A stretch of 64,000 nucleotides of DNA from an uncultured Flavobacteriaceae bacterium (GTDB lineage Bacteria > Bacteroidota > Bacteroidia > Flavobacteriales > Flavobacteriaceae). The notes beneath the pieces are model-generated. The model was given only the letters and a program-made list of their open reading frames with translations, ran no database searches and was not told where the DNA came from. This document shows positions 10,441 to 46,663 of the stretch, in pieces. Position numbers and translations under genes: made by a program. Position 1 is the first letter of the stretch, and each line of letters begins with the position of its first letter. The DNA is taken from NCBI GenBank assembly GCA_947494695.1, contig CANLWB010000007.1:124001-188000 (forward strand). Direction: 5' to 3'.

Positions 10441-11454
10441 TTACGAGTGTATCTTACCCGTTTTTTTACTCAGAGAGATCGGTTCTTTTTTCCTTGATAT
10501 TGTTAATATTTCTGAAACTATTGAAACTGCGATTTCTTGTGGTGTTTCCGACCCTATATTTAAACCGGCTGGTCCATGAATACAGTCTAAAAAAGCATGA
10601 TCAATATCGGGGCAATACTCTGTAAACTGCATTAACAAATCGTCCCGCCGCTTTACTGGTCCGAGAAGTCCAATATAGATTGGATTGGTATCTTTTAATT
10701 GCACCAAATATCTCAAATCACTTGCAAAATTATGCGTCATAAGAACTACTGCTGTTTGATCGTCAATAGCCGATACTTCCATATCCTCTGGGGAAACGGC
10801 ATGAAAACTCAAAGCTCCAGGGAAATTTGTGATTGACTTAGAATCTGATGGTCCAGAAACAATACCAACCTCCCACCCCGTTAAACTAGCATACTTACAC
10901 AATTGTACGGCATCATGTTCTGCTCCTATGATAACTAATTTAAAACACGGTGACATATGTTGTTTAAATACTAACGGGGCATTATTAGTCTCATGCTTAC
11001 GGTCTTGCAGCGAAAAAAAAGTCTCACCAATTTTCACACTAGACCCTAGTCCTGGAATGCTTCCAACCTGTTTATCGTAGTACGACCAAATATCGAAAGA
11101 TTGCCGAGTTTCAAGGCATTTCGAAAATGCGTCTTGAAACCCAGGCTCCGGCTCAAATAGTTCTATTAAAATATATAAAACACCTTCACAGCCCAATCGA
11201 TATCGACCATCGTAGGTCATTATTTTTGATGTTCCCGTTTTAAAAACGGATTCAGATTGTAGTAAAATTTCTTTTTCAACACAACCTCCACTAACGGCTC
11301 CAACCATGCTTCCATCTTCCTGAATAAGCATACGAACGCCAGGCTTCCTATAGGACGAACCATCTAGTGCCACAACCGATGCCAACACAGATTTTAGCCC
11401 TTTTTCTCTGGCCTTATCTGCCTGATAGACGATGTCTTTAAATTCGTGAGTCAT
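10441..11454 (-). CDS. XdhC/CoxI family Mo-hydroxylase maturation protein
   Basis: A 337-residue chaperone. The N-terminal XdhC_CoxI domain has SSYRKPGVRMLI and VSGGCVEKEIL (about 33-70). The C-terminal Rossmann-like XdhC_C domain starts at about 170 (FKLVIIGAEHDAVQLCKYA) and ends with GLLGPVKRRDDLL and GLNIGSETPQEIAVSI. XdhC proteins deliver the sulfurated cofactor to xanthine-dehydrogenase-type enzymes. It sits 9 bp downstream of the Mo subunit gene and 11 bp upstream of the MobA-like gene, which supports one dedicated maturation operon. Confidence 0.9.
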   Translation of the reverse strand: MTHEFKDIVYQADKAREKGLKSVLASVVALDGSSYRKPGVRMLIQEDGSMVGAVSGGCVEKEILLQSESVFKTGTSKIMTYDGRYRLGCEGVLYILIELFEPEPGFQDAFSKCLETRQSFDIWSYYDKQVGSIPGLGSSVKIGETFFSLQDRKHETNNAPLVFKQHMSPCFKLVIIGAEHDAVQLCKYASLTGWEVGIVSGPSDSKSITNFPGALSFHAVSPEDMEVSAIDDQTAVVLMTHNFASDLRYLVQLKDTNPIYIGLLGPVKRRDDLLMQFTEYCPDIDHAFLDCIHGPAGLNIGSETPQEIAVSIVSEILTISRKKEPISLSKKTGKIHS

Positions 11455-18818: not shown

Positions 18819-19889
18819 TTAGTTCTTTAACACTTTTTTGGTGATTACACCTTGATCTGTTTTTACCTTCAGTGTATAGAGTCCTTTACTTAAATTGGAA
18901 ATATCCATTGTATTTTCCGTACTCTTCTTAACTTCATTTGAGTTGAAATCAAATAATGTAGCTTCCTCTAATTTAGCAGCTCCATGTTCTTTAATGTTTA
19001 ATCTGTCATTTGCAGGAAGAGGAAATACGGTGATAATACCATCTTCGGGATCTTCTATTTTAGAGGCTACAATAGGGTTTGCTGTTACAATATTAAAATC
19101 TTTCCAAACTCCTGCCTCTCCATAAGCCAACTCACTACCTGCTGGAACATGTAAATCTACCTCTGCTAGATTTATATTACCAAAAACAGTTTCATAAATA
19201 AAAATGGGTGTCGGTCGTTTTAAAGTCACCGAAGCTAAATTTTCACAAAGAGAAAATGCAGAGTGATCTAGAATGGACACCGAATTACCCAAAGTAACTG
19301 ATGTTAACGCTTCACATTTACGAAAAGCAGTTGGTCCAATGTAGTAAACAGAATCCGGGATATCCAGGGAAACTAATGACTCGCAACCATTAAATGCACT
19401 CTTTGCTATAACTACTAAAGATTCTCCTAAGGCAACAGAAGTTAAACCGTCGCAACCAACAAATGCATTTTCGCTAATGGTTTTTAATGAATTGGGAAGC
19501 TCTACAGATGTTAAACTTTCACAACCTGAAAATGCACTTTCTCCTATAGATATTACAGCATCTGAAAAATCTACCGAAGTCAATCCTGAACAATTAAGAA
19601 AAGCTCCTGTTTCAATACTGGTTATTGATGAAGAAAGGCTTACAGATGTTAAGTCTGAACACCCTCTAAATGCTAAAAAGCCAACACTAGTTACGGTATA
19701 GGTTGACGCATTATAGGTGACCGTTTCTGGTATGGTTACTGCACCAGTATAACAACCTGATTTACTGTCAACTTCAACGTTTGTTGTTCCAGGAATCACA
19801 TGGTATGCGATATCATCGGTTACAAAGTCCTGAGCTGAAACAATACTTAGGCTTAACAAAGCCATTACAAAAAATAAATTTTTTTTCAT
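18819..19889 (-). CDS. BspA-like LRR surface protein with T9SS sorting domain (array gene A)
   Basis: 356 residues. Sec signal peptide ends SIVSAQ (about 1-19). A conserved N-terminal module follows (YHVIPGTTNVEV, TGAVTIPETVTYN). Then come about seven LRR_5 (PF13306) repeats of 23 residues with the pattern AFxxCxxLTSVxLPxSLxxI (about 60-240). A capping segment follows (VPAGSELAYGEAGVWKDFNI), then the type A T9SS tail (TVFPLPANDRLNI...GLYTLKVKTDQGVITKKV). BspA-type proteins are surface adhesins in other Bacteroidota; a role here is inference. It is monocistronic, with the phased-box promoter upstream. Confidence 0.9.
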   Translation of the reverse strand: MKKNLFFVMALLSLSIVSAQDFVTDDIAYHVIPGTTNVEVDSKSGCYTGAVTIPETVTYNASTYTVTSVGFLAFRGCSDLTSVSLSSSITSIETGAFLNCSGLTSVDFSDAVISIGESAFSGCESLTSVELPNSLKTISENAFVGCDGLTSVALGESLVVIAKSAFNGCESLVSLDIPDSVYYIGPTAFRKCEALTSVTLGNSVSILDHSAFSLCENLASVTLKRPTPIFIYETVFGNINLAEVDLHVPAGSELAYGEAGVWKDFNIVTANPIVASKIEDPEDGIITVFPLPANDRLNIKEHGAAKLEEATLFDFNSNEVKKSTENTMDISNLSKGLYTLKVKTDQGVITKKVLKN

Positions 19890-19913
19890 GAGATAATTTT
19901 TAAAAGTTTAGGC

Positions 19914-19998
19914 CAAACTACAGAGGCTAAGAAGCAATACCCAATTAACTTGGTGAGCTTCTTAGAATATTTGGTGACTGTTTCTAAATAGATGGTAA
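19914..19998 (-). promoter_or_regulatory. Promoter and phased boxes of array gene A
   Basis: Boxes on the plus strand: TTGGTGA at 19950 and 19971, and a weaker ATGGTAA at 19992. These starts are 21 bp apart. The -7 element TAGTTTGG (minus strand) ends at 19920, 30 bp from the start of the first box. The ATG follows 24 nt downstream of the -7 element. Confidence 0.6.
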
Positions 19999-20051
19999 TT
20001 ATCAAAAACTACAGATAAATCATTAAAAAAAGGTATTTAGCATTGAAGCAA

Positions 20052-20212
20052 AAACCCCACCGATGTCCAATCGATAGGGTTTCGTTTCTTTTGTAGGTTT
20101 ATTTTTTAAACCTTTATTTCTTGTAAACCAAACGACATCTATTAAGAAGCAATACACAATTAATTTAGTGAGTTTCTTAGAATAGTTGGGACTGCATCTA
20201 AACTTAAGGTGA
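20052..20212 (-). pseudogene. Relic BspA unit (R4): terminator and stub of gene end joined to its promoter
   Basis: Reading plus coordinates upward there is the array-type hairpin (20052-20082), then a sequence nearly identical to the 3' end of array gene D, finishing in the codons K-K-stop. It joins directly to a promoter copy like that of gene A, with TTAGTGA at 20165, TTGGGAC at 20186 (1-nt deletion) and AAGGTGA at 20206. The whole coding body, about 1 kb, is missing. The gap to gene A holds nothing else I can recognise. Confidence 0.6.
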
Positions 20213-20273
20213 ATGTCTAAAAAGAGCGATTTTTAAATCACCTTTTTTAAATAAGAAATACAATACAAATACA

Positions 20274-20304
20274 AAAACCCTATCGATTTGACATCAATAG
20301 GGTT
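20274..20304 (-). terminator. Terminator of array gene B
   Basis: AAACCCTAT/ATAGGGTTT stem with a TCGAT-containing loop 35 bp after the stop codon, the same hairpin design as after other array genes. Confidence 0.6.
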
Positions 20305-20339
20305 TAAAATAACTTGATTGTTTTATTCCTTTAAAAGGT

Positions 20340-21473
20340 TTATTGCTTTATCACTTTTTTAGTGATAACGCCTTGGCTTGTATTTAATCTTAAAATGTAC
20401 ATCCCACTTTGTAAATTCGATATATTTACATCACTTTCTGTGGTGGTTTTCACTACTTTTCCTTGTAAATTTAATACACTAACATCTTGTAAGTCCATAG
20501 AGTTTTTTAGTGATATATTCAAGGTGTTTTTAGCAGGCATAGGATATATGGTAATATCATCATCTTTCAAAGTGTTTTTATCAATAGCACTTAATGTTCC
20601 GTTAATAGGATTAAAATCTTGCCATACACGGGCTGCTCTGTAAGCTGATTCACTAGCAACTGGTACATTTAAAGCGACTAGCCTCAAATCTATTATATCA
20701 AAAACGCTTTCGCTTATAGCTATTGGTGTTACCACATCTATGGTTACAGAACTTAAATTACTACAGCTATTAAATGCATCATCTCCAATAGAGGTCACTC
20801 CACGTCCAATATCTATTGTTTTTAGTACAAAACATAAGGCAAATGCCTCTTCTTCTATAGTTGTCACAGAATCGGGAAGACTTATAGATTTAAGTTCTAT
20901 ACATCTCTTAAATGCGTTTTCTCCTATAACCATTAGTGAATTTCCAAAATTTACAGTTTCTAAATCAAAACAAGCTCTAAAAGCATTTGCGCCTATTGAA
21001 ATTAATGAATTTGGCAGGGTTATAGTTTTTAATTTTAAACACGTATCAAACGCAGATGACTCAAGAGACGTTAATGAATCTGGTAAGTCTACTGTTTCCA
21101 AGCTTGCACAGTTAGAAAATGTAGCTCTTTCAATAGTCGTTATTGAATTTGGAATACTTACTGTACGCAAGCCTGTAGCATAAAATGCCTGATAGCCAAT
21201 AGAGCGTATTGAATTTGGTATTGTTACGGCTGTTAAATCAGTACTTGACAAAAATGCTCTTGCTTCAATAGCGGTTACATTATAAGTTGTTGCACCATTA
21301 GTCACGGTTTCCGGTACAGTTACAGATCCGCTATAATACCCTGCTTTGTTCGTTACAGCGACATTGGATGTTCCTGATACAATGTTATAGGCAATGTTAT
21401 CTACTATAAAATCTTGTGCTGTGGAAATACTAAGGCTTAATAAAGCCATAATTAAAAAAATATGTTTTTTCAT
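20340..21473 (-). CDS. BspA-like LRR surface protein with T9SS sorting domain (array gene B)
   Basis: 377 residues. Signal peptide ends SISTAQ. The N-terminal module is IVDNIAYNIVSGTSNVAV. About eight 23-residue LRR_5 repeats follow (AFRACFDLETVNFGNSLMVI and similar), then a cap (VPVASESAYRAARVWQDFNP). The tail is distinct from gene A: IYPMPAKNTLNISLKN, KVVKTTTESDVNISNLQSGM, ending VITKKVIKQ. The same tail type is found on the frameshifted gene at 27298. The protein should be exported by Sec and then T9SS and displayed on the cell surface. A single-gene unit. Confidence 0.9.
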   Translation of the reverse strand: MKKHIFLIMALLSLSISTAQDFIVDNIAYNIVSGTSNVAVTNKAGYYSGSVTVPETVTNGATTYNVTAIEARAFLSSTDLTAVTIPNSIRSIGYQAFYATGLRTVSIPNSITTIERATFSNCASLETVDLPDSLTSLESSAFDTCLKLKTITLPNSLISIGANAFRACFDLETVNFGNSLMVIGENAFKRCIELKSISLPDSVTTIEEEAFALCFVLKTIDIGRGVTSIGDDAFNSCSNLSSVTIDVVTPIAISESVFDIIDLRLVALNVPVASESAYRAARVWQDFNPINGTLSAIDKNTLKDDDITIYPMPAKNTLNISLKNSMDLQDVSVLNLQGKVVKTTTESDVNISNLQSGMYILRLNTSQGVITKKVIKQ

Positions 21474-21501
21474 GTTTGTGGGGGTTTATTCATGTCTTTG
21501 G

Positions 21502-21587
21502 CGAATCTATATTCTTTGCTATTCGCTATCAAATTTATTTGGCGAACGTGCTCATATTAATGGTCAATGAAACAAAAAACAAGGTGA
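21502..21587 (-). promoter_or_regulatory. Promoter and phased boxes of array gene B
   Basis: Boxes: TTGGCGA at 21539, ATGGTCA at 21560, AAGGTGA at 21581, exactly 21 bp apart. The -7 element TAGATTCG (minus strand, 21502-21509) is again 30 bp from the first box. The rest of the gap to gene C (21588-21753) contains a weak stem ACTAAGTTT/AAACTTAGT at about 21666-21693. Confidence 0.55.
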
Positions 21588-21753
21588 ATAAATACCGAAC
21601 GGTATATGTTTAATTGAATTCAAATTCTAACCCAAAATGAATCCACAAATCACCTAATCACAACTAAGTTTTTTATCCAATAAAGAAACTTAGTAATTAA
21701 CCTAATTGGTAAGTTACATGCTTCTTTTTAAATTTAAACAATCGTATTATCGT

Positions 21754-22890
21754 TTATTTTATTACCACTTTTTTAGTAACAACTCCGCGATCTGTATTAA
21801 GTTTTAAAGTATAAATACCTCCAGCCAAATTTGAGATATCTATAGTATTCCCTGTAGTTGTTTTAACAATATCACCATTCAGGTTTAATAACGTAGCTTC
21901 TTCTAAAATAACAGATTTCTTTTGCTCTATGTGCAATACATTATTTGCAGGTATAGGATATAACTTTACATCTTCCTTCGTCAAGGAGCTTTCTAAATCA
22001 CTTATTTCTCTACTCGTAATCGGGTTAAAATTTTTCCAGAATCTAGCTGCTCTATATGCAACCTCACTACCTCTTGGAACATATAACGTTATTGACGATA
22101 AATCTAAGTTAAAAAATACGCTTTCAGTTATTCGTACTGGTGTTGCATGTTTTACCGTTACAGCAGTTAAATCTTTACATTTTCTAAAAGCACCTTGACC
22201 AATAGACGTTACCGAGCTTCCTATACGTATTGTTTTCGCTCCTTTACAGTTCATAAACGCTTGTTCTCCCAGGGTGATTACAGAATCTGGAATATCTATT
22301 GTGCTCAGAGACTTACATCCTTTAAATGCAATTTCTCCTATGGAAGTTAATGAACTTCCCAGGTTAACCTCACTTAAGCTTTCACAATAATAAAATGCTT
22401 GTCTTTCTATGGCGACTACAGAATCTGGAATATTGATAGTTGTTAAATTCTCGCATTCTCCAAATGCGGCAACTCCTATAAAGGTTAATGAATCTGGCAA
22501 GTCTACCGTTTCTAAATTAACACAGGAGGCAAAGGTAGCTTGCTCGATAGATGTTACGCCGTTTGGAATGGCCACTGAAGTCAATCCTGCACAACCTACA
22601 AATGCTAATTTTCCTATAGAAACTACCGAATCTGGAATAGCTATTGAAGTTAACCCGGTACAACTACGAAATGCTCCTATGCCAATGGTAGTAACATCAT
22701 AGTTTTCAGTATTATAGGTTACCGTTTCTGGTATGGTTACTGCACCAGTATAACAGTCTGCTTTCTTAACGACTTCAACGTTTGTCGTTCCAGGAATCAC
22801 ATGGTAAGCAATATTATTGCTTACAAAGTCCTGTGCTGAGGCAATACTTAGGCTTAACAAAGCCATTACAAAAAATAGATTTTTTTTCAT
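21754..22890 (-). CDS. BspA-like LRR surface protein with T9SS sorting domain (array gene C)
   Basis: 378 residues from the ATG at 22890. The frame stays open 40 codons further upstream, but that extension crosses the promoter and would bury the signal peptide, so it is rejected. Signal peptide ends SIASAQ. The N-terminal module is YHVIPGTTNVEV. LRR_5 repeats include VTSIEQATFASC, TFIGVAAFGECENLTTINIP and SLTSIGEIAFKGCKSL. Cap: VPRGSEVAYRAARFWKNFNP. Tail: LYPIPANNVLHIEQKKS...GIYTLKLNTDRGVVTKKVVIK. Its repeat region is the closest match to that of the frameshifted gene at 27298. Confidence 0.9.
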   Translation of the reverse strand: MKKNLFFVMALLSLSIASAQDFVSNNIAYHVIPGTTNVEVVKKADCYTGAVTIPETVTYNTENYDVTTIGIGAFRSCTGLTSIAIPDSVVSIGKLAFVGCAGLTSVAIPNGVTSIEQATFASCVNLETVDLPDSLTFIGVAAFGECENLTTINIPDSVVAIERQAFYYCESLSEVNLGSSLTSIGEIAFKGCKSLSTIDIPDSVITLGEQAFMNCKGAKTIRIGSSVTSIGQGAFRKCKDLTAVTVKHATPVRITESVFFNLDLSSITLYVPRGSEVAYRAARFWKNFNPITSREISDLESSLTKEDVKLYPIPANNVLHIEQKKSVILEEATLLNLNGDIVKTTTGNTIDISNLAGGIYTLKLNTDRGVVTKKVVIK

Positions 22891-22914
22891 GGGGTAAATT
22901 TTAAAAGTTTTGAC

Positions 22915-22957
22915 CAAACTACATCTGTTAAGAAGCAATGCACAATTAATTTGGTGA
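22915..22957 (-). promoter_or_regulatory. Promoter of array gene C, only the proximal box kept
   Basis: TTGGTGA at 22951 sits 30 bp from the -7 element TAGTTTGG (ending 22921). Where the second box should start (22972) the sequence reads GCCATGT. The similarity to the gene D promoter stops at about 22970, so the distal boxes were lost at a junction. Confidence 0.55.
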
Positions 22958-22970
22958 GTTTTTAGGAATT

Positions 22971-23220
22971 TGCCATGTACAAATAGCCCGCTAAGCCTAT
23001 TCACTTCCACCCTGTAAGCTTCATGCTACTAATAACAATAAGTATTTACTAAAAAACATGCTTCCACTATGTAAAGGCTGAGCCGTCTATTGAGCTAACG
23101 GCATTTGGAATACATACAAAAGTTAATCTTTATACAAGAAAAAACAGGTACGCCATGTCATGCATTTATTGAGTAGATTTAGGACATAACTGGTATAATA
23201 TTTAATTTAATTTTCTTTGT
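22971..23220 (-). pseudogene. Decayed array spacer with LRR scrap (R3)
   Basis: The stretch 23088-23140 (TATTGAGCTAACGGCATTTG and on) resembles an LRR-coding segment of the array genes (compare 22614-22665), but it has no open frame. The whole spacer also aligns with 24760-24945 upstream of gene E's terminator, including GACATAACTGGTA. It looks like an old, degenerate array copy. Confidence 0.4.
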
Positions 23221-23222
23221 TA

Positions 23223-23253
23223 AAAACCCTACCGATAAGAAATCGCTAGGGTT
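23223..23253 (-). terminator. Terminator of array gene D
   Basis: AAACCCTA/TAGGGTTT stem with CCGAT/ATCG extension, 33 bp after the stop codon. Confidence 0.6.
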
Positions 23254-23285
23254 TCGTTGCTTTTGTAGGTTTATTTTTTAAACCT

Positions 23286-24359
23286 TTATTTCTTGATTAC
23301 TTTTTTGGTAATCACACCTTCTGTTGTCTCTAGTTTTAAGGTATAAAGTCCCTTGTTTAAACTTGAAACATCCATACTTTGTGCTTTACTTGTTTTAACA
23401 ATGTCGCCATTAAAGTCTAAAAGTGTGGCCTGCTCTAATTTAGCGGTACCATGTTCTTTAATGTTTAATCTGTTGTTCGCCGGAAGAGGAAATACAGTGA
23501 TGCTCCCTTCTTCTGAAGAATCTTCCATTCTAAAAGCTGCAATCGGGTTTGCTCCTACAATATTGAAATCTTTCCAAACGTCAGCGTCTTTATAAGCTAG
23601 TTCGCTACCTGCCGGAACATATAAATCTATTTCTGAAAGATCTATAAAACCAAAGGCGAATTCAAAAATTGAAAATGGTACAGATTGCTTCACAGTTATT
23701 GAATCTAAATTCGGGCAAAAGTTAAACAAAAGCTGCCCTATAATTACTACAGAGTTTCCTAGAGTCGCTGAAGTTAAAGCGCCACAATCGGAAAAGGCAG
23801 AATCTCCGATGTAATAAACAGAATCGGGAATACTTATTGAAGTTAACGAAGAACAGTTCTCAAATGACTTATCTCCTAAAACAACTAATGATTCTCCTAA
23901 AGAAACAGACGTTAAACCATTACAATTACGAAATGCGTTATCATTAATTGAAGTTACCGAATTTGGAATTTCCAAAGATGTTAAACCTGTACATCCTAGA
24001 AATGAACTAAATCCAATGCTTGTTAATGCGTCTGGTAGTTCTATTGCAGTCAACCCCGTACAGCCACTAAAAGCCAAGGTCTTGATAGCAACTACTGAAT
24101 TAGGAAGACTTACAGCGGTTACTGCTGAACACCCGGCAAAAGCCGACTTCCCAACATAAGCTACTGTATAATCCGTAGCATTATTGGTCACTGTTTCTGG
24201 AATAACGACAGATCCGTTATAGCATCCGTCTTTTTTCGCAACCTCTACCGTTGTTGTTCCTGGTATGATCTTATAGGCAATATGATCTGCTATAAAATCT
24301 TGAGCGGTTGCGATACTTAGGCTTAATAAAGCCATTACAAAAAATAGATTTTTTTTCAT
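23286..24359 (-). CDS. BspA-like LRR surface protein with T9SS sorting domain (array gene D)
   Basis: 357 residues from the ATG at 24359. An in-frame upstream extension of 39 codons lies over the promoter boxes and is rejected. Signal peptide ends SIATAQ. The N-terminal module is YKIIPGTTTVEV. The LRR_5 repeats include FLGCTGLTSLEIPNSVTSI and AFSDCGALTSATLGNSVVII. Cap: VPAGSELAYKDADVWKDFNI. The tail is of the A/E type: TVFPLPANNRLNIKEHG, DFNGDIVKTSKAQSMDVSSL, ending ITKKVIKK. Predicted to be displayed on the surface through T9SS. Confidence 0.9.
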   Translation of the reverse strand: MKKNLFFVMALLSLSIATAQDFIADHIAYKIIPGTTTVEVAKKDGCYNGSVVIPETVTNNATDYTVAYVGKSAFAGCSAVTAVSLPNSVVAIKTLAFSGCTGLTAIELPDALTSIGFSSFLGCTGLTSLEIPNSVTSINDNAFRNCNGLTSVSLGESLVVLGDKSFENCSSLTSISIPDSVYYIGDSAFSDCGALTSATLGNSVVIIGQLLFNFCPNLDSITVKQSVPFSIFEFAFGFIDLSEIDLYVPAGSELAYKDADVWKDFNIVGANPIAAFRMEDSSEEGSITVFPLPANNRLNIKEHGTAKLEQATLLDFNGDIVKTSKAQSMDVSSLNKGLYTLKLETTEGVITKKVIKK

Positions 24360-24382
24360 GGGGTAAATTTTAAAAGTTTTGG

Positions 24383-24468
24383 CCAAACTACATCTGTTAG
24401 GAAGCAATGCACAATTAATTTGGTGAGTTTTTAGGAATACTTGGTGACTGTTTCTAAACTTAGGGTGA
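24383..24468 (-). promoter_or_regulatory. Promoter and three phased boxes of array gene D
   Basis: TTGGTGA at 24420 and 24441, AGGGTGA at 24462: 21-bp steps. -7 element TAGTTTGG on the minus strand ends at 24390, 30 bp from box 1. Confidence 0.6.
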
Positions 24469-24499
24469 GTGGCCAAAAAGGGTTATTTTAAAAACACCC

Positions 24500-24945
24500 T
24501 TTTTAAGTAGGAAATATAATACTAAAACAAAATCAATATCGATTTTAAAATGGATAGTATGGTGTTCCCTCCTATAGTTTTTAGCACATTTTCGTGTAAG
24601 TGTTATGTGCTAACACATTTGTAAGTTTACAGTGTTTTTAGTAATACATTCAAGATGTTTTTATCATTAACAGTTCAATATCCTGTTAATAAGGTATAAT
24701 ATTGCCATGCACTGGTAGCCTCTTAAACCAATTTATTTGCGACTTGTATACGTAAGTAAAGCGATTAATGACAATACTACTAACTAAAAACCATTCTTTC
24801 ACCATCTAAAGACGTCATCACTTATAGAGCTCACTACATTTCAATAAAATGTAACGTTTTGCACCATGTATCATCACAAAAGCCATCATTTTAGTTTTGG
24901 AAAATTTAGAACATAACTGGTAAATATGTAACGTGAGTTTTCTAA
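24500..24945 (-). pseudogene. Decayed BspA-like gene copy (R2)
   Basis: Positions about 24588-24740 align with the 3' coding part of gene B (about 20450-20650): shared stretches include GTTTTTAGTAATACATTCAA versus the matching part of gene B, and CTTGCCAT versus ATTGCCATGCACTGG. The frame is destroyed. Positions 24760-24945 match spacer R3. No intact start, signal peptide or boxes are seen. Confidence 0.5.
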
Positions 24946-24948
24946 GAC

Positions 24949-24981
24949 AAAAACCCTACCGATAATAAATCGATAGGGTTT
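24949..24981 (-). terminator. Terminator of array gene E
   Basis: AAACCCTACCGAT pairs with ATCGATAGGGTTT, 32 bp after the stop codon; nearly the same hairpin as after gene D. Confidence 0.65.
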
Positions 24982-25012
24982 CGTTGAATTTGTAGATTTA
25001 ATTTCTAAATCT

Positions 25013-26089
25013 TTATTTCTTGATTACTTTTTTGGTAATCACACCTTCTGTTGTCTCAATTTTTAAGGTGTAAAGTCCTTGATTTAAACTTGATACATCA
25101 ATACTATGGGCATTACTCGTTTTAACAACTTCTCCATTAATGCTGAAAAGTGTGGCCTGCTCTAATTTAGCTGTACTATGTTCTTTAAGGTTTAACCTAT
25201 TGTTTGCAGGAATTGGGAATACTGTAATTATACCATCTTCTGGTTCTACAATTTTAGAACTTGAAAGGGGAGATGACGCTACAATATTAAAATCTTTCCA
25301 AACTCTTGCTTCTCCATAATCTAACTCGCTATCTACGGGAACATGTAAATCTATTTCTGCTAAACTTGTACCACCAAAATCAAAAACAGTCTCAAAAATA
25401 AAAATTGGTGTTGATCGTTTTAAAGTCACCGAAGCTAAATTATCACAACCTGAAAATGCAGAGTGATCTATAGTGTCCACCGAATTACCCAAAGTAACTG
25501 ATGTTAATGCTCTACATTGACGAAAAGCATTATCTCCAATGTAGTAAACAGAATCCGGGATATCTATAGAAACTAATGACTCGCACCCACTAAATGCATT
25601 ATCTGCTATAGCTACTAAAGATTCTCCTAAGGAAACAGAAGTTAAACTCTTGCAACTAGCAAATCCACTTCGACTAATGGTTTTTAATGAATTGGGAAAC
25701 TCTACAGATGTTAAACTTTCACAACCTTCAAATGCACTAACTCCTACAAATGTCAAAGCATCTGAAAAATCTACTGAAGTCAACCCTGAACAATTAGTAA
25801 AAGCCCCTACCTTAATACGGGTTATTGAGTTAGAAAGACTTACAGACGTTAACTCTGAACAATCTTCGAATGCTAAATAGCCTATACGAGATACAGTATA
25901 GGTTGATGCATTGTAAGTCACTGTTTCTGGTATGGCTACCGCACCAGTATAACAGTCTGTTTTCTTAGCGACTTCAACATTTGTTGTTCCAGGAATCACA
26001 TGGTAAGCAATATCATCTACTACAAAGTCCTGTGCTGTGGCAATACTTAGGCTTAAGAAAGCCGTAATTAAAAACATACTTTTTTTCAT
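25013..26089 (-). CDS. BspA-like LRR surface protein with T9SS sorting domain (array gene E)
   Basis: 358 residues. Signal peptide ends SIATAQ. The mature protein is very close to gene A throughout: FSDALTFVGVSAFEGCESL, SLKTISRSGFASCKSLTSV, IPDSVYYIGDNAFRQCRAL. About seven LRR_5 repeats, cap VPVDSELDYGEARVWKDFNI, and an A/D-type tail (TVFPIPANNRLNLKEHS...GLYTLKIETTEGVITKKVIKK). Its promoter DNA, however, is of another sequence type, shared with relic R1. This suggests the body and promoter have been reshuffled. Confidence 0.9.
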   Translation of the reverse strand: MKKSMFLITAFLSLSIATAQDFVVDDIAYHVIPGTTNVEVAKKTDCYTGAVAIPETVTYNASTYTVSRIGYLAFEDCSELTSVSLSNSITRIKVGAFTNCSGLTSVDFSDALTFVGVSAFEGCESLTSVEFPNSLKTISRSGFASCKSLTSVSLGESLVAIADNAFSGCESLVSIDIPDSVYYIGDNAFRQCRALTSVTLGNSVDTIDHSAFSGCDNLASVTLKRSTPIFIFETVFDFGGTSLAEIDLHVPVDSELDYGEARVWKDFNIVASSPLSSSKIVEPEDGIITVFPIPANNRLNLKEHSTAKLEQATLFSINGEVVKTSNAHSIDVSSLNQGLYTLKIETTEGVITKKVIKK

Positions 26090-26124
26090 TGGTATTTTAT
26101 TTTGGGTTTAAATTATTAATACCT

Positions 26125-26189
26125 CAAAATTATAATGTTTAATAGCCCTCCTAAAATTAATATGGTGAGCCTACCTATTTACATGGTGA
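26125..26189 (-). promoter_or_regulatory. Promoter and phased boxes of array gene E
   Basis: ATGGTGA at 26162 and 26183 (21 bp apart). -7 element TAATTTTG (minus strand, 26125-26132) is an exact TAnnTTTG, 30 bp from box 1. No third box is seen. Confidence 0.6.
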
Positions 26190-26565
26190 ACTAAAAAAAT
26201 ATGTTCTTTCAAATAGGGTATAAAAACGACAACGAATACTTAAAACCTGGACTCAAAAGCATAAAACCAGATTTCCTAATTTCTTTTTTTAACAACGTGG
26301 TAATTTTAAACCATTTCAATTCCGTTTTGTATTACAAATACGTGCTTTGTGTCATTCCGAACGGCATTTACAAATATTATGACACTAATATTAAACAGTT
26401 TAAACCTAAAATTTGAAACACCTTCAGATTGACAAAATTCTATTATGAAAAATTACGGACAATTAGTTTAAATTATAAAAATTACACCTAAACCAAAGCT
26501 ACTCCAGACCAATCATTGCATGTATGAATAACTCATATTAGATCCAAGTTTCAAGAACTCTTAAT

Positions 26566-26606
26566 ACCTAAAAAAAGGTATAGGTTCTAATACCTCTTTT
26601 TAGGTA
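26566..26606 (-). terminator. Long hairpin downstream of relic R1
   Basis: ATACCTAAAAA-type arms at both ends (26565-26575 and 26596-26607) can pair. It stands where the terminator of the deleted R1 gene would be. Confidence 0.4.
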
Positions 26607-26704
26607 TTTTTACTACGAACAACATGAAATTAGTATGCTTTTCTTATGGTTTTACTTTTGCTTGCCTGTCCAAATCAAAAAAAGGAGGTTTTTTACTTAC
26701 ACAC

Positions 26705-26910
26705 TCGCTTTTTATCACTTTTTTAATGATAAAGCCTTGAAAACGCAAATGATTCAATAGACCTCATTAAGACTTAAGAAAGTCATAATTATAGGCATAG
26801 TTTCTTTTATTGGTTTTTGAGGTTTACTGTTATAAAGAACCCAAAAATATAATGTTTAACAGCACTCTAAAAATTAATATGGCGAGTCTACTCATTTAGG
26901 TGGTCAAGTA
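26705..26910 (-). pseudogene. Relic BspA gene (R1), body deleted
   Basis: On the minus strand a promoter with ATGGCGA at 26879, GTGGTCA at 26900 and an exact -7 TATTTTTG (26842-26849) leads to a signal-peptide sequence like that of gene E. Its ATG has become ATA. After about 20 codons it joins directly to the last codons of a gene B-type tail (compare GGCTTTATCATTAAAAAAGT with the end of gene B). About 1 kb of coding DNA is gone. Confidence 0.6.
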
Positions 26911-27180
26911 AAAAAACGTTCTTTTTACAAGGTATCTAAACGATAACCAACACCTAAAGCAAGAACTCAAAAATTTAAAACAGAGCTTATCAGCTTCTTT
27001 TTCAAAATATCGTAATAATTAAGGGATAAACACATTACACTTAGAAAAAGGTTATTCTAGACCAATCATTGCATGTATTAATCTCGAATATTAACCAAAG
27101 TTTCAATAACCCCATATCTCCTAAAAAAAGGGATACATCGCTACACCTATTTTAGGTGATTTTCACTCTAAATAGCATAG
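26830..27180 (-). repeat. Tandem duplication, copy 2
   Basis: Partner of 26090-26630. It carries the R1 promoter and the upstream DNA, up to a second CCTAAAAAAAGGG element at about 27120. Confidence 0.45.
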
Positions 27181-27229
27181 AATTAATATTCTTTTCTTAG
27201 AGGTTACTTTTGCTTATTTGTACAAATAA

Positions 27230-27263
27230 AAAAACCTTGTCAATTTTAATCAACAAGGTTTTA
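27230..27263 (-). terminator. Terminator of the frameshifted array gene F
   Basis: AAACCTTGT pairs with ACAAGGTTT around a short AT loop, with T residues after it on the minus strand. Confidence 0.65.
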
Positions 27264-27297
27264 TTTAATAAAAGAAAGAGATTCTCTTACTTACATA

Positions 27298-28434
27298 TTA
27301 ACTTTTTATCACTTTTTTAGTGATAACACCTTGGCTTGTATTTAATTTTAAAATATACATCCCACTTTGTAAGTCGGATATGTTTACAGTACTTTCTGTG
27401 GTGGTTTTCACCACTTTTCCCTGTAAATTTAATATGCTAACAGTTTGCAAGTTCACAGAGGTTTTTAGTGCTATATTTAAGGTGTTTTGAGCTGGTATTG
27501 GATATATGGTAAGATCGTTATCCTTCAAAGCATTTTTATTGTCAATACTTAATGTACCATTAATAGGGTTAAAATTTTGCCAAAATCTAGCAGCTCTGTA
27601 TGCGGCCTCACTACCACTTGGAACATATAACGCTATTGACGATAAATCTAAGTTAAAAAATACACTTTCAGTTATTCGTACTGGAGTTGTATGTTTCACC
27701 CTTACAGCAGTTAAGCTTTCACATCCCCTAAAGGCACCATTACCAACAGAAGTCACTGAACTTTCAATACTTATTGTACTTACATCTGCACAATTCATAA
27801 ACGCTTGTTCTCCTATAGTAATTACAGAATCTGGAATAGCTATTGAGCTTAGAGACTTACATCCTTTAAATGCAATTTCACCTGTAGATGTTAATGAACT
27901 TCCAAGGTTTACATCGCTTAAGCTTTCACAACCAAAAAATGCTTGTCTTTCTATGGTCACTACAGAATCTGGAATGTCGATGGTTGTTAAATTTGTAGAT
28001 TCTCCAAATGCTGCTACTCCTATAAAGGTTAAAGAATCTGGTAAATCTACTGTTGTTAAATTAGTACAGGTAGCAAACGTAGCCTGTTCGATAGAGGTTA
28101 CTCCATTTGGAATGGCTACCGAAGTTAATCCGCTACAACTTGAAAATGCTAATCTCCCCATAGACACTATAGAGTCTGGAATAGCTATTGAAGTTAATCC
28201 GGTACAATTAAGGAACGCCTCTTCGGCAATAGTAGTAACATTATAATCTACAGCATTATAGTTTACTGTTTCGGGTATCGTTATGGCTCCACTATAACAG
28301 TCTGTTTTTTTTGGTAACTTCAACTGTGGTGGTTCCCGATATGATATTATAGGCAATATCATCTACCTCAAAATCTTGTGCAGAGGCCATACTCAGGCTT
28401 AATAAAGCCATAATAAAAAAATAGGTCTTTTCAT
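27298..28434 (-). pseudogene. BspA-like LRR T9SS protein with two frameshifts (array gene F)
   Basis: The proper start at 28434 gives MKRPIFL and then a stop: one A is missing compared with gene B in the signal-peptide region. The frame that continues the signal peptide (MALLSLSMASAQDFEVDDIA) is broken again at an eight-A tract (28306-28313 as T on the plus strand) where seven would keep frame. From there 340 residues are intact. The LRR block is closest to gene C (VTSIEQATFATC, ITESVFFNLDLSSI), while the tail is of gene B type (NPINGTLS, KVVKTTTESTVNISDLQSGM). So this is both a mosaic and either broken or switchable. Assembly error in homopolymers cannot be excluded. Confidence 0.75.
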
Positions 28435-28462
28435 GTTTGTGGGTTTCATTTATTATCTTGAG

Positions 28463-28548
28463 CGAAAATATATGCCTTGCTACCCCCTATCAAATTTATT
28501 TGGTGAGCTTATTCATATTTATGGTGAATGAAACGAAAACCAAGGTAA
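28463..28548 (-). promoter_or_regulatory. Promoter and three phased boxes of gene F
   Basis: TTGGTGA at 28500, ATGGTGA at 28521, AAGGTAA at 28542 (21-bp steps). -7 TATTTTCG on the minus strand (28463-28470), 30 bp from box 1. The leader is closely related to that of gene B. Nothing further was recognised in 28549-28735. Confidence 0.6.
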
Positions 28549-28737
28549 AACATACTAATTGGTATGTTTTTATTTTTTAAAAACTAATTCTTCCAGAAGT
28601 TTTGTCGGAACATTTTCCAGAAGCCTCATCGGTGTTTTGAAGTATACGTGTTCCAACAGATCTCAAGCAACACATAACTACTTAAAAATAAGATGATAAC
28701 ACAACTTAAGTCAAATAACAACTTAACATTTAAACAT

Positions 28738-28775
28738 AAAAAAAGCCTTATCGATTAATACATCGATAAGGCTTA
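28738..28775 (-). terminator. Terminator of array gene G
   Basis: AAAGCCTTATCGAT pairs with ATCGATAAGGCTT, followed by T-rich DNA on the minus strand. Confidence 0.7.
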
Positions 28776-28804
28776 AGCATAGTAGAGTTTGCTCTTTTTA
28801 ACGT

Positions 28805-29881
28805 TTAATTTTTTACTACCTTTTTAGTAATAACTCCTTGATCTGTATCAATTTTTAAAGTATATAATCCTTGGTTTAATTTTGATATGTTTACGGTATT
28901 ACTTTTACTCTCACCAACAATTTCTCCCTTAAAGTTTAACAACGTTGCTTGCTCTAATTTAGCAGATGTTTTTTGACTTATGTTTAAAGTACTATTTGCT
29001 GGAACAGGATACACCACAATATCGTCTTCACTTAAAGTTTTGCTTAATGTTTTGCTTAAAGGGTTTGAAACGCTTGTAATAGGATTAAAGTCTTGCCAAA
29101 ACCTGGTTGCCTCGTATGCAGACTCACTACCAAATGGAACATATAAGGTTACTGACGATAAATCCAAGAAGAGGAAAATAGTGCTGTTTATTATTAAGGG
29201 CGTTTCTTGCTTTACCGTTACAGATGTTAAACCAGTACATCCAAAAAATGCAAGGTTGCCTATTTGATTCACAGATTTCCCAATAACGATCGTACTTAAT
29301 GATGTACATTGAGCAAAAGAATTTTCACCAATAGAAGTTACTGAATCGGGAATGTCTAATGAAGTTAGGGACGTACAACCTCTAAATGCAATATTTCCAA
29401 TTGAATTCACAGTGTTTCCCATAGATACAGAGCTTAAATTATTACAAAACATAAAAGCTCCTAATTCAATAGAAACAACTGAATCTGGTATACTTATTGA
29501 ATTTAAATTCTGGCATCTACTAAATGCCCCTATTCCAATTGTGATCAATGAATCAGGCAAATCTACTGCTGTCAAACCATTACATCCAGCAAAAGCTATT
29601 TTATTAATAGAGGTCACCGAATTTGGAATATTTACACCTGTTAAATCAGTACACATATTGAACGCTGCTTCTCCAATAGTCGTTACGGCATAATCTGTAG
29701 AATTGTAATTCACTGTGCTTGGTATGATTACAGATCCACTATAACATTCTGTCTTTTTCGTAACTTCTACGTTCGTTGTTCCTGATATGATATTATAGCC
29801 AATATTATCTACTATAAAATCTTGTGCAGTCACAATACTAAGGCTTAACAAAGCCATAACTAAAAATAAATTGTTTTTCAT
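28805..29881 (-). CDS. BspA-like LRR surface protein with T9SS sorting domain (array gene G)
   Basis: 358 residues, the first unit of the array in transcription order. Signal peptide ends SIVTAQ. The N-terminal module is YNIISGTTNVEV. About seven LRR_5 repeats follow (FNMCTDLTGVNIPNSVTSI, FRGCTSLTSLDIPDSVTSI and similar), then cap VPFGSESAYEATRFWQDFNP. The linker carries a tandem SKTLSKTLSEDD duplication. Tail: VYPVPANSTLNISQKTS...GLYTLKIDTDQGVITKKVVKN. Sec plus T9SS export to the cell surface is predicted. Confidence 0.9.
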   Translation of the reverse strand: MKNNLFLVMALLSLSIVTAQDFIVDNIGYNIISGTTNVEVTKKTECYSGSVIIPSTVNYNSTDYAVTTIGEAAFNMCTDLTGVNIPNSVTSINKIAFAGCNGLTAVDLPDSLITIGIGAFSRCQNLNSISIPDSVVSIELGAFMFCNNLSSVSMGNTVNSIGNIAFRGCTSLTSLDIPDSVTSIGENSFAQCTSLSTIVIGKSVNQIGNLAFFGCTGLTSVTVKQETPLIINSTIFLFLDLSSVTLYVPFGSESAYEATRFWQDFNPITSVSNPLSKTLSKTLSEDDIVVYPVPANSTLNISQKTSAKLEQATLLNFKGEIVGESKSNTVNISKLNQGLYTLKIDTDQGVITKKVVKN

Positions 29882-29904
29882 GGGAATAATTTTTAAAATT
29901 TACC

Positions 29905-29991
29905 CTAAACTATATTTTTAGAATCTCTGGCCATAATTAATTTGGTGAATCTATTCGTTTACTTGGTGACTGCTACGAAATTCATCGGTGA
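29905..29991 (-). promoter_or_regulatory. Promoter and three phased boxes of gene G
   Basis: TTGGTGA at 29942 and 29963 (21 bp), TCGGTGA at 29985 (22 bp). The -7 element TAGTTTAG (29905-29912, minus strand) is 30 bp from box 1. The rest of the gap to kbl holds only the kbl terminator. Confidence 0.6.
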
Positions 29992-44890: not shown

Positions 44891-45946
44891 ATGTTGAAAA
44901 AGAAATTTATTTTAAAAAAATTAGGACAGTTTTTTCTACACCTTTTGTTTTGGTTCTTAGTCCTGCTATTTTTCACGTATTTCTTTGGTGCTGAAAGCAA
45001 TAACTATAGTGATACGCTTTCGTTTTCTTTATTTTTAATGCCTATTACTATAGCCATCACCTATGTTTCTATTTATAAATTGATACCTGATTACCTCATT
45101 ACTAAACGCTATTTCCTATTTATTGTCTACACGCTGTACACCTTTATTATATCTGTGTATTTAATCATGATATCTATCTTTTTCAGCCTTGTTTATCTAG
45201 CCGGGTTTCAATACGACGCGATGAACCCTGTAACCAAAAACATAATTTTAGTAGCATCGGGAGTATATCTTGTTACGATTGTTGTTAGTGCTTTTAAATT
45301 GATAAAACTCAACTTAAAGCATGTCGAACAAAAGAGTAAACTCGAAACCAAAATCCTAGAAACCCAGCTTAAACTAAAGGAACAGCAACTTAATTATTTA
45401 AAGATGCAAATTCACCCTCATTTTTTGTTTAACACACTAAATACCATGTATGGATTTGCTCTAAAGAAAGCAGATGAAGCACCAGAAATGATTTTAAAAC
45501 TTTCTAATTTATTGGACTACCTGCTTTATAAAGTTGACAAACCTTTTGTTTTACTTACAGACGATATCGACCATATAAAAGATTATATTGAATTAGAAAA
45601 AATGCGCTTTAATGAAACTTTAGACATTACTTTTATAATAGGATATATTCCAAAAGATATTCAGGTCGCTCCTATGCTATTACTGCCTTTCATTGAAAAT
45701 AGCTTTAAACACGGCTCTATAAAAAATGGTTTGTTATCAATTAAAATACACCTAACTTGTAAAGACAAAAACATCCATTTTAGTATTGAAAACACAAACA
45801 AACTATCTAAACCTCACAAAAACGGTATTGGATTAGAAAACATACAAAAGCGACTTGATTTATTATACAAAGATAATTACACACTAAACCTTATTAACAA
45901 AAATGCTTTTTTTAAAGTAAACCTTATATTAAACACAGTAGATTAA
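44891..45946 (+). CDS. LytS/YpdA-type sensor histidine kinase
   Basis: 351 residues. Four hydrophobic segments occupy about 10-140, a coiled-coil linker follows (about 145-175), then the His_kinase domain. QIHPHFLFNTLNTMYGFA holds the phospho-acceptor His. The ATPase part has PFIENSFKHGS and NGIGLENIQKRLDLLY. The family pairs with LytTR response regulators. The stop codon is followed at once by the start of the next gene, so the two form one operon. Input signal unknown. Confidence 0.92.
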   Translation: MLKKKFILKKLGQFFLHLLFWFLVLLFFTYFFGAESNNYSDTLSFSLFLMPITIAITYVSIYKLIPDYLITKRYFLFIVYTLYTFIISVYLIMISIFFSLVYLAGFQYDAMNPVTKNIILVASGVYLVTIVVSAFKLIKLNLKHVEQKSKLETKILETQLKLKEQQLNYLKMQIHPHFLFNTLNTMYGFALKKADEAPEMILKLSNLLDYLLYKVDKPFVLLTDDIDHIKDYIELEKMRFNETLDITFIIGYIPKDIQVAPMLLLPFIENSFKHGSIKNGLLSIKIHLTCKDKNIHFSIENTNKLSKPHKNGIGLENIQKRLDLLYKDNYTLNLINKNAFFKVNLILNTVD

Positions 45947-46663
45947 TTGTTGCAGAACAAAGACATATCATGCCTAATTGTAGATGATGAGCCTATCGCC
46001 AGAGAAGTTATAGAAACACATCTAAAAAGCATATCAAATATAAAAATAATTGGTAGCTGTCAGAGTGCCATTGAGGCATTTGGCTATATAAGAAACCACA
46101 GTATCGATTTAGTTTTTTTGGATATAAACATGCCCGAAATATCTGGAATCTCTTTTGCTAAATCCATTAACAAAAACATCAAAATTATTTTCACGACAGC
46201 ATACCGGGATTATGCTGTAGAAGGCTTTGAGTTGCAAGCGGTAGATTATTTATTAAAACCCATTTCTTTTGATCGTCTATTGAAAGCTATTAACAATTAC
46301 TATGATATATATAGTAAACAGAAAAATACACCCCTTGAAAAGTCAAACAGCAACGATTTTATGTTTGTTCGAGCAAACAGACGCATGATTAAAATAGATT
46401 TTGATGCTGTGATCTATATTGAAAGTTATAGTGATTACATAAAAATTCATTTAGAAAAACAAACTATTGTAACTCGAGAAACTATTAGTGCTGTAGAGGC
46501 TAAACTACCTGTTAAAAACTTCATGCGAATTCACAGATCGTACATCATTTCTATAAAAAACATCACCTCTTTCACCAACGAGGAGATTGTGATTAACAAC
46601 ACATCCTTACCTATAAGCAGAAGCTATAAACAGGAAGTCTTAAACATTTTGGAGAGGTTCTAA
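45947..46663 (+). CDS. LytTR family response regulator
   Basis: 238 residues starting at TTG directly after the kinase stop codon. The receiver domain (about 8-122) has DDEP, phospho-acceptor Asp in LVFLDINMPE, TTAYRDYAVEGF and Lys in YLLKPISF. The LytTR DNA-binding domain is at about 145-237 (ANRRMIKIDFDAVIYIESYS, MRIHRSYIISIKNI, LPISRSYKQEV). LytTR regulators bind direct repeats about 21 bp apart, the same phasing as the boxes in the BspA array. A link is conceivable, but such pairs are common in this family. Confidence 0.92.
   Translation: MLQNKDISCLIVDDEPIAREVIETHLKSISNIKIIGSCQSAIEAFGYIRNHSIDLVFLDINMPEISGISFAKSINKNIKIIFTTAYRDYAVEGFELQAVDYLLKPISFDRLLKAINNYYDIYSKQKNTPLEKSNSNDFMFVRANRRMIKIDFDAVIYIESYSDYIKIHLEKQTIVTRETISAVEAKLPVKNFMRIHRSYIISIKNITSFTNEEIVINNTSLPISRSYKQEVLNILERF

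Follow-up and report, generated by a model that had tools for sequence, protein, structure and literature searches.

We identified a shared putative three-site operator upstream of an array of leucine-rich-repeat (LRR_5) genes in a 64,000-nucleotide stretch of DNA from an uncultured marine Flavobacteriaceae bacterium (the window; positions 124001-188000 of contig C7 in a genome of 5.49 Mb that probably belongs to the genus Flavivirga). The operator consists of three direct repeats of (T/C)TCACCMT in 21-bp steps, at a constant distance from the -7 element of the promoter, and it recurs before genes for exported proteins, both elsewhere in this genome and in seven further members of the genus. 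With a probability of roughly 0.8, these sites are read by a LytTR response regulator encoded 26 kb outside the window (the C7 LytTR), paired with a kinase that has tetratricopeptide repeats (TPRs) and a HisKA_2 domain, and serve to activate a cell-surface regulon. Below, C denotes a contig of this genome (G000), G a genome used for comparison and L a locus that was opened.

Promoters of the LRR array

All array genes are encoded on the minus strand, and in that orientation the box sequence is TCACCAW. The genes and promoters (19914-29991) are as follows.

18819-29881 (-): array of seven LRR_5 genes, each with a C-terminal sorting domain of the type IX secretion system (T9SS); the window's part of the proposed regulon
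19911-19999 (-): promoter g0, LRR_5-T9SS gene 18819-19889; boxes 19950-19956, 19971-19977 and 19992-19998; -7 element TAGTTTGG at 19913-19920 (-)
20126-20214 (-): relic promoter r2, no gene of its own, next open reading frame (ORF) that of g0; box TTAGTGA at 20165, box 2 shifted by 1 nt, box 3 off register by 1 nt; TCGTTTGG at the -7 place
21500-21588 (-): promoter g1, LRR_5-T9SS gene 20340-21473; three boxes; -7 TAGATTCG
22912-23000 (-): promoter g2, LRR_5-T9SS gene with ATG at 22890; proximal box 22951-22957 only; -7 TAGTTTGG
24381-24469 (-): promoter g3, LRR_5-T9SS gene with ATG at 24359; three boxes; -7 TAGTTTGG
26123-26211 (-): promoter g4, LRR_5-T9SS gene 25013-26089; boxes at 26162 and 26183; -7 TAATTTTG
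26840-26928 (-): relic promoter r1; boxes at 26879 and 26900; -7 TATTTTTG; no ORF of at least 90 aa within 300 bp
28461-28549 (-): promoter g5, LRR_5-T9SS gene with ATG at 28434 and open frame 27298-28362; three boxes; -7 TATTTTCG
29903-29991 (-): promoter g6, LRR_5-T9SS gene 28805-29881; boxes at 29942 and 29963, third shifted by 1 nt; -7 TAGTTTAG

The original prediction placed a box exactly 30 bp from the TA of a -7 element in all nine promoters, and this is what we found (in relic r2 the TA reads TC). Read on the plus strand, the variants at this place are TTGGTGA, ATGGTGA, TTGGCGA, ATGGCGA and TTAGTGA. The 30 bp correspond to 36 nt on the gene strand, counted from the first T of TCACCAW to the TA. 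A second box, predicted 21 bp further in eight of the nine, is in register in seven (with one or two changes in g1 and r1) and shifted by 1 nt in r2; g2 (22951) has no second or third box at the expected places. The third box predicted in six promoters is in register in g0, g1, g3 and g5 and shifted by 1 nt in g6 and r2. The observation of boxes in the window is confirmed. On the gene strand the order is box 3, 21 bp, box 2, 21 bp, box 1, an AT-rich tail, about 20 nt and TAnnTTTG. By eye, the array leaders sort into about four groups. The nine promoters are not nine independent events, and proof therefore depends on sites outside the array.

By eye, the g2 promoter (22957-23000) stops resembling the g3 sequence a short way past box 1, which would fit a rearrangement ending there. 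In g5 (28312-28434), the ATG at 28434 is out of frame and followed by an early stop, and the open frame resumes at 28362; the homopolymer T runs differ in length from those of g1 and g6. The signal peptide of g5 is either broken, variable or mis-sequenced.

Occurrence across the genome

Exact TCACCA pairs with a gap of 3-33 nt were listed across the whole genome. There are 58, of which 13 have a 21-bp period and at most five have any other period; the reversed pattern gives 17 pairs (7 and 10, compared with 27 and 31). The 13 pairs fall at 10 places: five array promoters, two places at C7:216-220 kb, two duplicated promoters on C17 (five pairs) and one place within an ORF on C16. This last pair (C16:94878) and a one-mismatch pair at C9:94997 fall within long ORFs and were set aside as chance.

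A weight matrix built from the seven window promoters alone gives 14 of 17 outside promoters scores of 14.9-39.3 bits; when the same 176.8 kb is resampled 20 times with a Markov model, no score exceeds 8.8. The scanned loci had been preselected for box pairs, so the independent gain lies in the -7 and AT-tail parts. Promoters L054:10764, C22:11485 and C6:2433 were missed by this matrix (they are not among the matches above 5). A profile (R1) was trained on 14 promoters that align without gaps, seven from the window and seven from outside. It finds 24 sites in the genome at E <= 1.9e-5, followed by the C17 sites (1.6e-4 to 1.5e-3) and then by a match at 0.07. The 24 comprise nine in the array, five at C7:210-220 kb, four on C22, three on C5, two on C6 and one on C4. 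Ten were not used in training: three already known (g2, r2 and C5:218124) and seven newly found. Random occurrence, which the original prediction named as evidence against itself, does not account for the excess at the 21-bp period or for matrix and profile matches well beyond background.

Operator geometry and the core promoter

We compared 38 gap-free sites, 20 from this genome and 18 from relatives, some of the latter mutually orthologous. Six of the 26 own promoters (the 24 profile sites and two on C17) were left out: g2, r2, C22:11485, C6:2433 and the two on C17. TAnnTT is in register in 19 of the 20 own and 16 of the 18 relatives' sites (35 of 38), although all were chosen as matrix matches, a choice that favours register and counts against our case here. 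The proximal box begins 36 nt from the -7 TA; in four other promoters this distance is 35 or 37 nt. In the own sites, the three boxes hold 0.99, 1.38 and 1.52 bits per column and the 19-nt spacer 0.20; for own and relatives' boxes together the range is 0.99-1.56, and the relatives' spacer holds 0.35. Column information in the two sets is correlated (0.81). All three places carry ACC in 12 own sites (the single places in 16, 19 and 15) and in 18 of 18 relatives' sites, 16 of which have TA at the -7 place.

Repeats of LytTR sites are 9-11 nt long and 11-13 nt apart (PMC4847170). Direct repeats at a 21-bp period adjoining a core promoter fit the LytTR class that was originally suggested, as do repeat length and the co-occurrence of a LytTR regulator (see below). 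The constant register also supports the suggestion that one regulator would bind one face of the helix.

With the flavobacterial -7 element at -12 to -5 (PMC9723704), the box cores fall at about -48 to -42, -69 to -63 and -90 to -84, and the proximal box immediately precedes the -33 place. From this register, 5' leaders of 15-41 nt would be expected. Many of these promoters lack a TTG near -33 and for that reason look activator-dependent. There is a small but real chance that the boxes are instead a repressor operator of the same C7 LytTR. CoxC is a LytTR repressor with three repeats that overlap the -35 (PMC11347149), and TTG is found near -33 in 10 of the 20 own sites. However, it is found there in only two of the 18 relatives' sites, the TCACCAW core stops short of -33, ending at about -42, and most LytTR regulators bind upstream of -35 and activate (PMC11347149). 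We thus favour activation.

Genes downstream of the operator

Of the 26 promoters, two lack any ORF of 90 aa in a 300-bp range, one is the relic whose next ORF is that of g0, and 23 have their own gene. Eight of these encode LRR_5 proteins with a T9SS tail (in the eighth, on C5, the tail scores below the cut-off). Six are DUF285 genes, of which four also carry Big_2, one has a weak PKD match and one has DUF285 only; the one DUF285 protein tested matches PARCEL-repeat surface proteins in NCBIfam. One gene is Vgb-like with T9SS (Vgb match 49.9 bits, cut-off 50), four encode lipoproteins of p387/p398 type without a family (one short, 154 aa), two encode p440 lipoproteins and two encode small proteins that carry a signal on visual inspection. 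Such inspection, supplemented in eight cases by a lipobox pattern, shows a signal or lipoprotein-like N-terminus in 22 of the 23 products, the exception being g5 with its broken start. The original prediction, which counted a motif before unrelated genes against itself, stands in part: the boxes do precede other gene families, but the products belong to the same class, exported or surface proteins.

Boxed LRR_5 genes are found in this strain only; none was recognised among 12 opened box loci of relatives (BLASTP with one LRR query).

The DUF285/PARCEL lipoprotein genes with boxes on C22 (L058) and C6 (L061) lie near contig ends and may be a single cluster split by the assembly. The boxes of one of them (L058:4262-6019) have decayed (14.3 bits). 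A good three-box promoter at L054:13632-13720 has no ORF of at least 90 aa in a 300-bp range; SBBP-T9SS, the next gene, starts about 850 bp away, and the counterpart in G153 (L134:14040) is about 350 bp from an SBBP gene.

The C7 LytTR and its kinase as the candidate regulator

The genome holds 23 LytTR matches, two of which are set out here.

C7:214578-215312 (L054:8579-9313): C7 LytTR response regulator
45947-46663 (+): window LytTR response regulator, with His_kinase 44891-45946; named in the original prediction

The C7 LytTR has a receiver domain (PF00072, 64.3 bits) and a LytTR domain (PF04397, 75.3 bits), and the adjoining kinase has TPRs, HisKA_2 and ATPase domains. Five box promoters are found within 4.5 kb, on both sides of the regulator gene. 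Scored at E < 1e-3, boxes are present in eight of 12 genus genomes (G000, G019, G150, G151, G153, G154, G157 and G158). Orthologues of the C7 LytTR, at 74-79% identity, occur in exactly the seven other box-bearing genomes; among the matches listed, G149, G152, G155 and G156 reach at most 32%. Regulator and boxes therefore agree in all 12 (eight present, four absent). Outside the genus, among the matches listed (397 family genomes, E <= 1e-45), none exceeds 40% identity.

Neighbouring genes at the regulator locus were compared using a reference set of 18 proteins. PAP2 is upstream and p387 downstream in all eight genomes, p398 was recognised beside the regulator in six (not in G151 or G154), and in G000 and G153 an SBBP gene is interposed. 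Box promoters flank the LytTR-kinase pair in all eight, on both sides in seven and on the p387 side only in G151; for G153 the count includes the p387 promoter with 22 bp between two boxes.

We propose that the kinase would phosphorylate the C7 LytTR in response to a signal, and that the regulator would then bind three sites in a row on one helix face. Once bound, it would activate transcription from a core promoter that is probably of sigma-A type, with TAnnTTTG at -7 and often no clear -33. The predicted regulon comprises exported proteins: lipoproteins encoded beside the kinase and regulator, DUF285/PARCEL lipoproteins and a Vgb-like T9SS protein. To these, this strain would add its expanded array of T9SS LRR proteins.

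AraC half-sites are direct repeats about two turns apart. It is conceivable, but unlikely, that a regulator of another class (e.g., AraC-type) or another LytTR (C17:27266-27955) reads the boxes, and that the C7 LytTR is only a neighbour of regulated genes. A multi-box promoter does lie about 5 kb from the C17 LytTR. The C7 LytTR, however, adjoins box promoters in every genome that has them and matches box presence throughout the genus, and a row of three sites fits LytTR precedents.

The window LytTR, with its LytS-type kinase, is of the right DNA-binding class and shares the contig with the array, at a distance of 16 kb. That it reads the boxes is nevertheless highly unlikely. Orthologues (79-87%) are present in 10 of the 12 genus genomes, including the box-less G149 and G155, so the boxes fail to track it, and no profile match was found beside it in this genome. 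The original prediction was probably right about the class of the regulator and probably wrong about the gene. The switch most likely belongs to the C7 LytTR, not to the window LytTR.

Conservation and loss in relatives

Among 149 family genomes drawn, strong profile matches are confined to this genus. The relatives' promoters number 21 (20 at E < 1e-3 and the G150 p398 promoter at E 0.0012), and 18 of them, from seven genomes, are gap-free and in register. Free variation of the spacing in relatives, which would have spoken against a shared code, is thus not what we see. Promoters copied along with array genes, without function, have a practically negligible probability as the sole source of the spacing: leaders g0, g2, g3 and r2 are closely alike, as are g1 and g5, but array duplication as the whole explanation is contradicted by the same boxes before unrelated families and in seven other genus genomes, with boxes conserved and spacers diverged.

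In a tree of four genes (3882 nt), G149 and G155 are placed beside G151 (support 100) and G156 beside G158 (85); G152 is set apart with weak support. The absences thus fall at three places in the tree, the one for G152 weakly, and regulator and boxes would have been lost together two or three times if the ancestor had them. G152, which lacks the regulator, retains a p387 gene (59% identical) with TATAAGTTTG but no boxes, and its neighbours differ from those of the regulator locus. The matrix score there is -12.5, whereas seven p387 promoters from genomes with the regulator score 41.5 to 64.4. Box loss in G152 is compatible with an activator or a repressor alike.

Outside the genus, 12 of the 149 family genomes have one marginal match each (E 1.7e-4 to 9.3e-4). 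Eleven of these are in an open frame of at least 98 codons and were taken as chance. Within the genus, matches in G149 and G155 (E 0.007 and 0.0095) show no row of boxes by eye and were rejected.

Evidence against the proposed regulator and operator

Several observations weigh against the C7 LytTR as the reader of a uniform operator. The co-occurrence of regulator and boxes is partly built in because boxes usually sit by the regulator, and the comparison covered two regulators (the C7 and window LytTR) in the 12 genus genomes; six of the eight box genomes also have sites away from the regulator locus. A search for 21-bp repeats near the 23 own LytTR genes and 17 distant LytTR loci gave nothing clear: for triple 8-mers, a score of 20/24 was reached at 21 bp in five loci (L032, L041, L225, L229 and L230) and also at 18 bp in two (L041 and L226).

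Some promoters depart from the geometry. The C17 pair (L055:8656-8725 and 10854-10923), before tandem p440 lipoprotein genes, has four to five boxes in 21-bp steps; its -7 is closer by one nt than in other promoters, and the other LytTR gene is about 5 kb away. The p387 promoter of G153 has 22 bp between two boxes (score 6.3), and in the p440-like promoters of G153 and G154 the -7 is one nt further and only two boxes are good. Outside the genus, the remaining match, in G103 (L096, G103:C39:5386-5456; E 3.3e-4), is not in any long frame and resembles a pair of poor boxes with an in-register -7; among the matches listed, G103 has no orthologue of the regulator.

Other genes lack boxes despite the presence of the regulator. 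Vgb homologues (51-57% identity) in G019 and G154 are without them, which suggests recruitment gene by gene, and a second p387 copy in G154 also has none (score -13.1). The core promoter of this copy (L267) resembles that of the first, and by eye the likeness stops in the AT tail of box 1.

Relation to known systems

The two-repeat LytTR operators of AgrA, YpdB and others are similar: their repeats, about 9-11 nt long with 10-13 nt between them, also precede the core promoter (PMC4847170, PMC4227749, PMC11347149). In the system described here, three sites are the rule, at about two dozen promoters. The sequences also differ (TCACCMT here, GGCATTTCAT for YpdB), and the proximal repeats are centred near -45 rather than near -60 as for AgrA. 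RcoM1 and CoxC provide precedents for a LytTR domain that reads three direct repeats, all three of which CoxC needs (PMC11347149). The CoxC repeats are 18-21 bp apart and overlap the -35, and those of RcoM1 have 12-13 bp between them (PMC11347149). Unlike the proposed two-component regulator of surface proteins in Bacteroidota, RcoM1 and CoxC are regulators of CO metabolism and use TTCNNGCA-type repeats.

Fish plasma jointly induces a tandem series of 17 T9SS LRR genes in Flavobacterium psychrophilum (PMC9723704), and co-regulated LRR arrays thus have a precedent. The likeness is by description only; no operator or regulator is given for that array in the available text of PMC9723704. In the open-access literature, we found no described regulator for secreted LRR arrays or PARCEL lipoproteins in flavobacteria and no paper on LytTR in Bacteroidetes/Flavobacter; among the matches listed for the genus name, none concerns regulation by title.

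We lean towards a genus-level surface program in which one LytTR system acts through a three-site operator that replaces a good -33, and in which unrelated families (LRR_5-T9SS, PARCEL/DUF285 and p387) have been recruited via the same promoter cassette, gene and promoter expanding together, as in the LRR array of this strain. This suggests that an expanding surface-protein family can stay under one switch when the promoter duplicates with the gene. The analysis yields a precise operator, a candidate regulator and about two dozen targets, and the four related genomes without regulator and boxes offer a natural comparison.

FimS/FimR of Porphyromonas gingivalis has a role in fimbriae. The kinase described here is similar to FimS in being a TPR-bearing sensor kinase, with a match to NF053520 in the TPR part only (72 bits, far short of the cut-off of 600). 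It differs from FimS/FimR in that the kinase part is HisKA_2/PhyK-like and the regulator is a LytTR protein.

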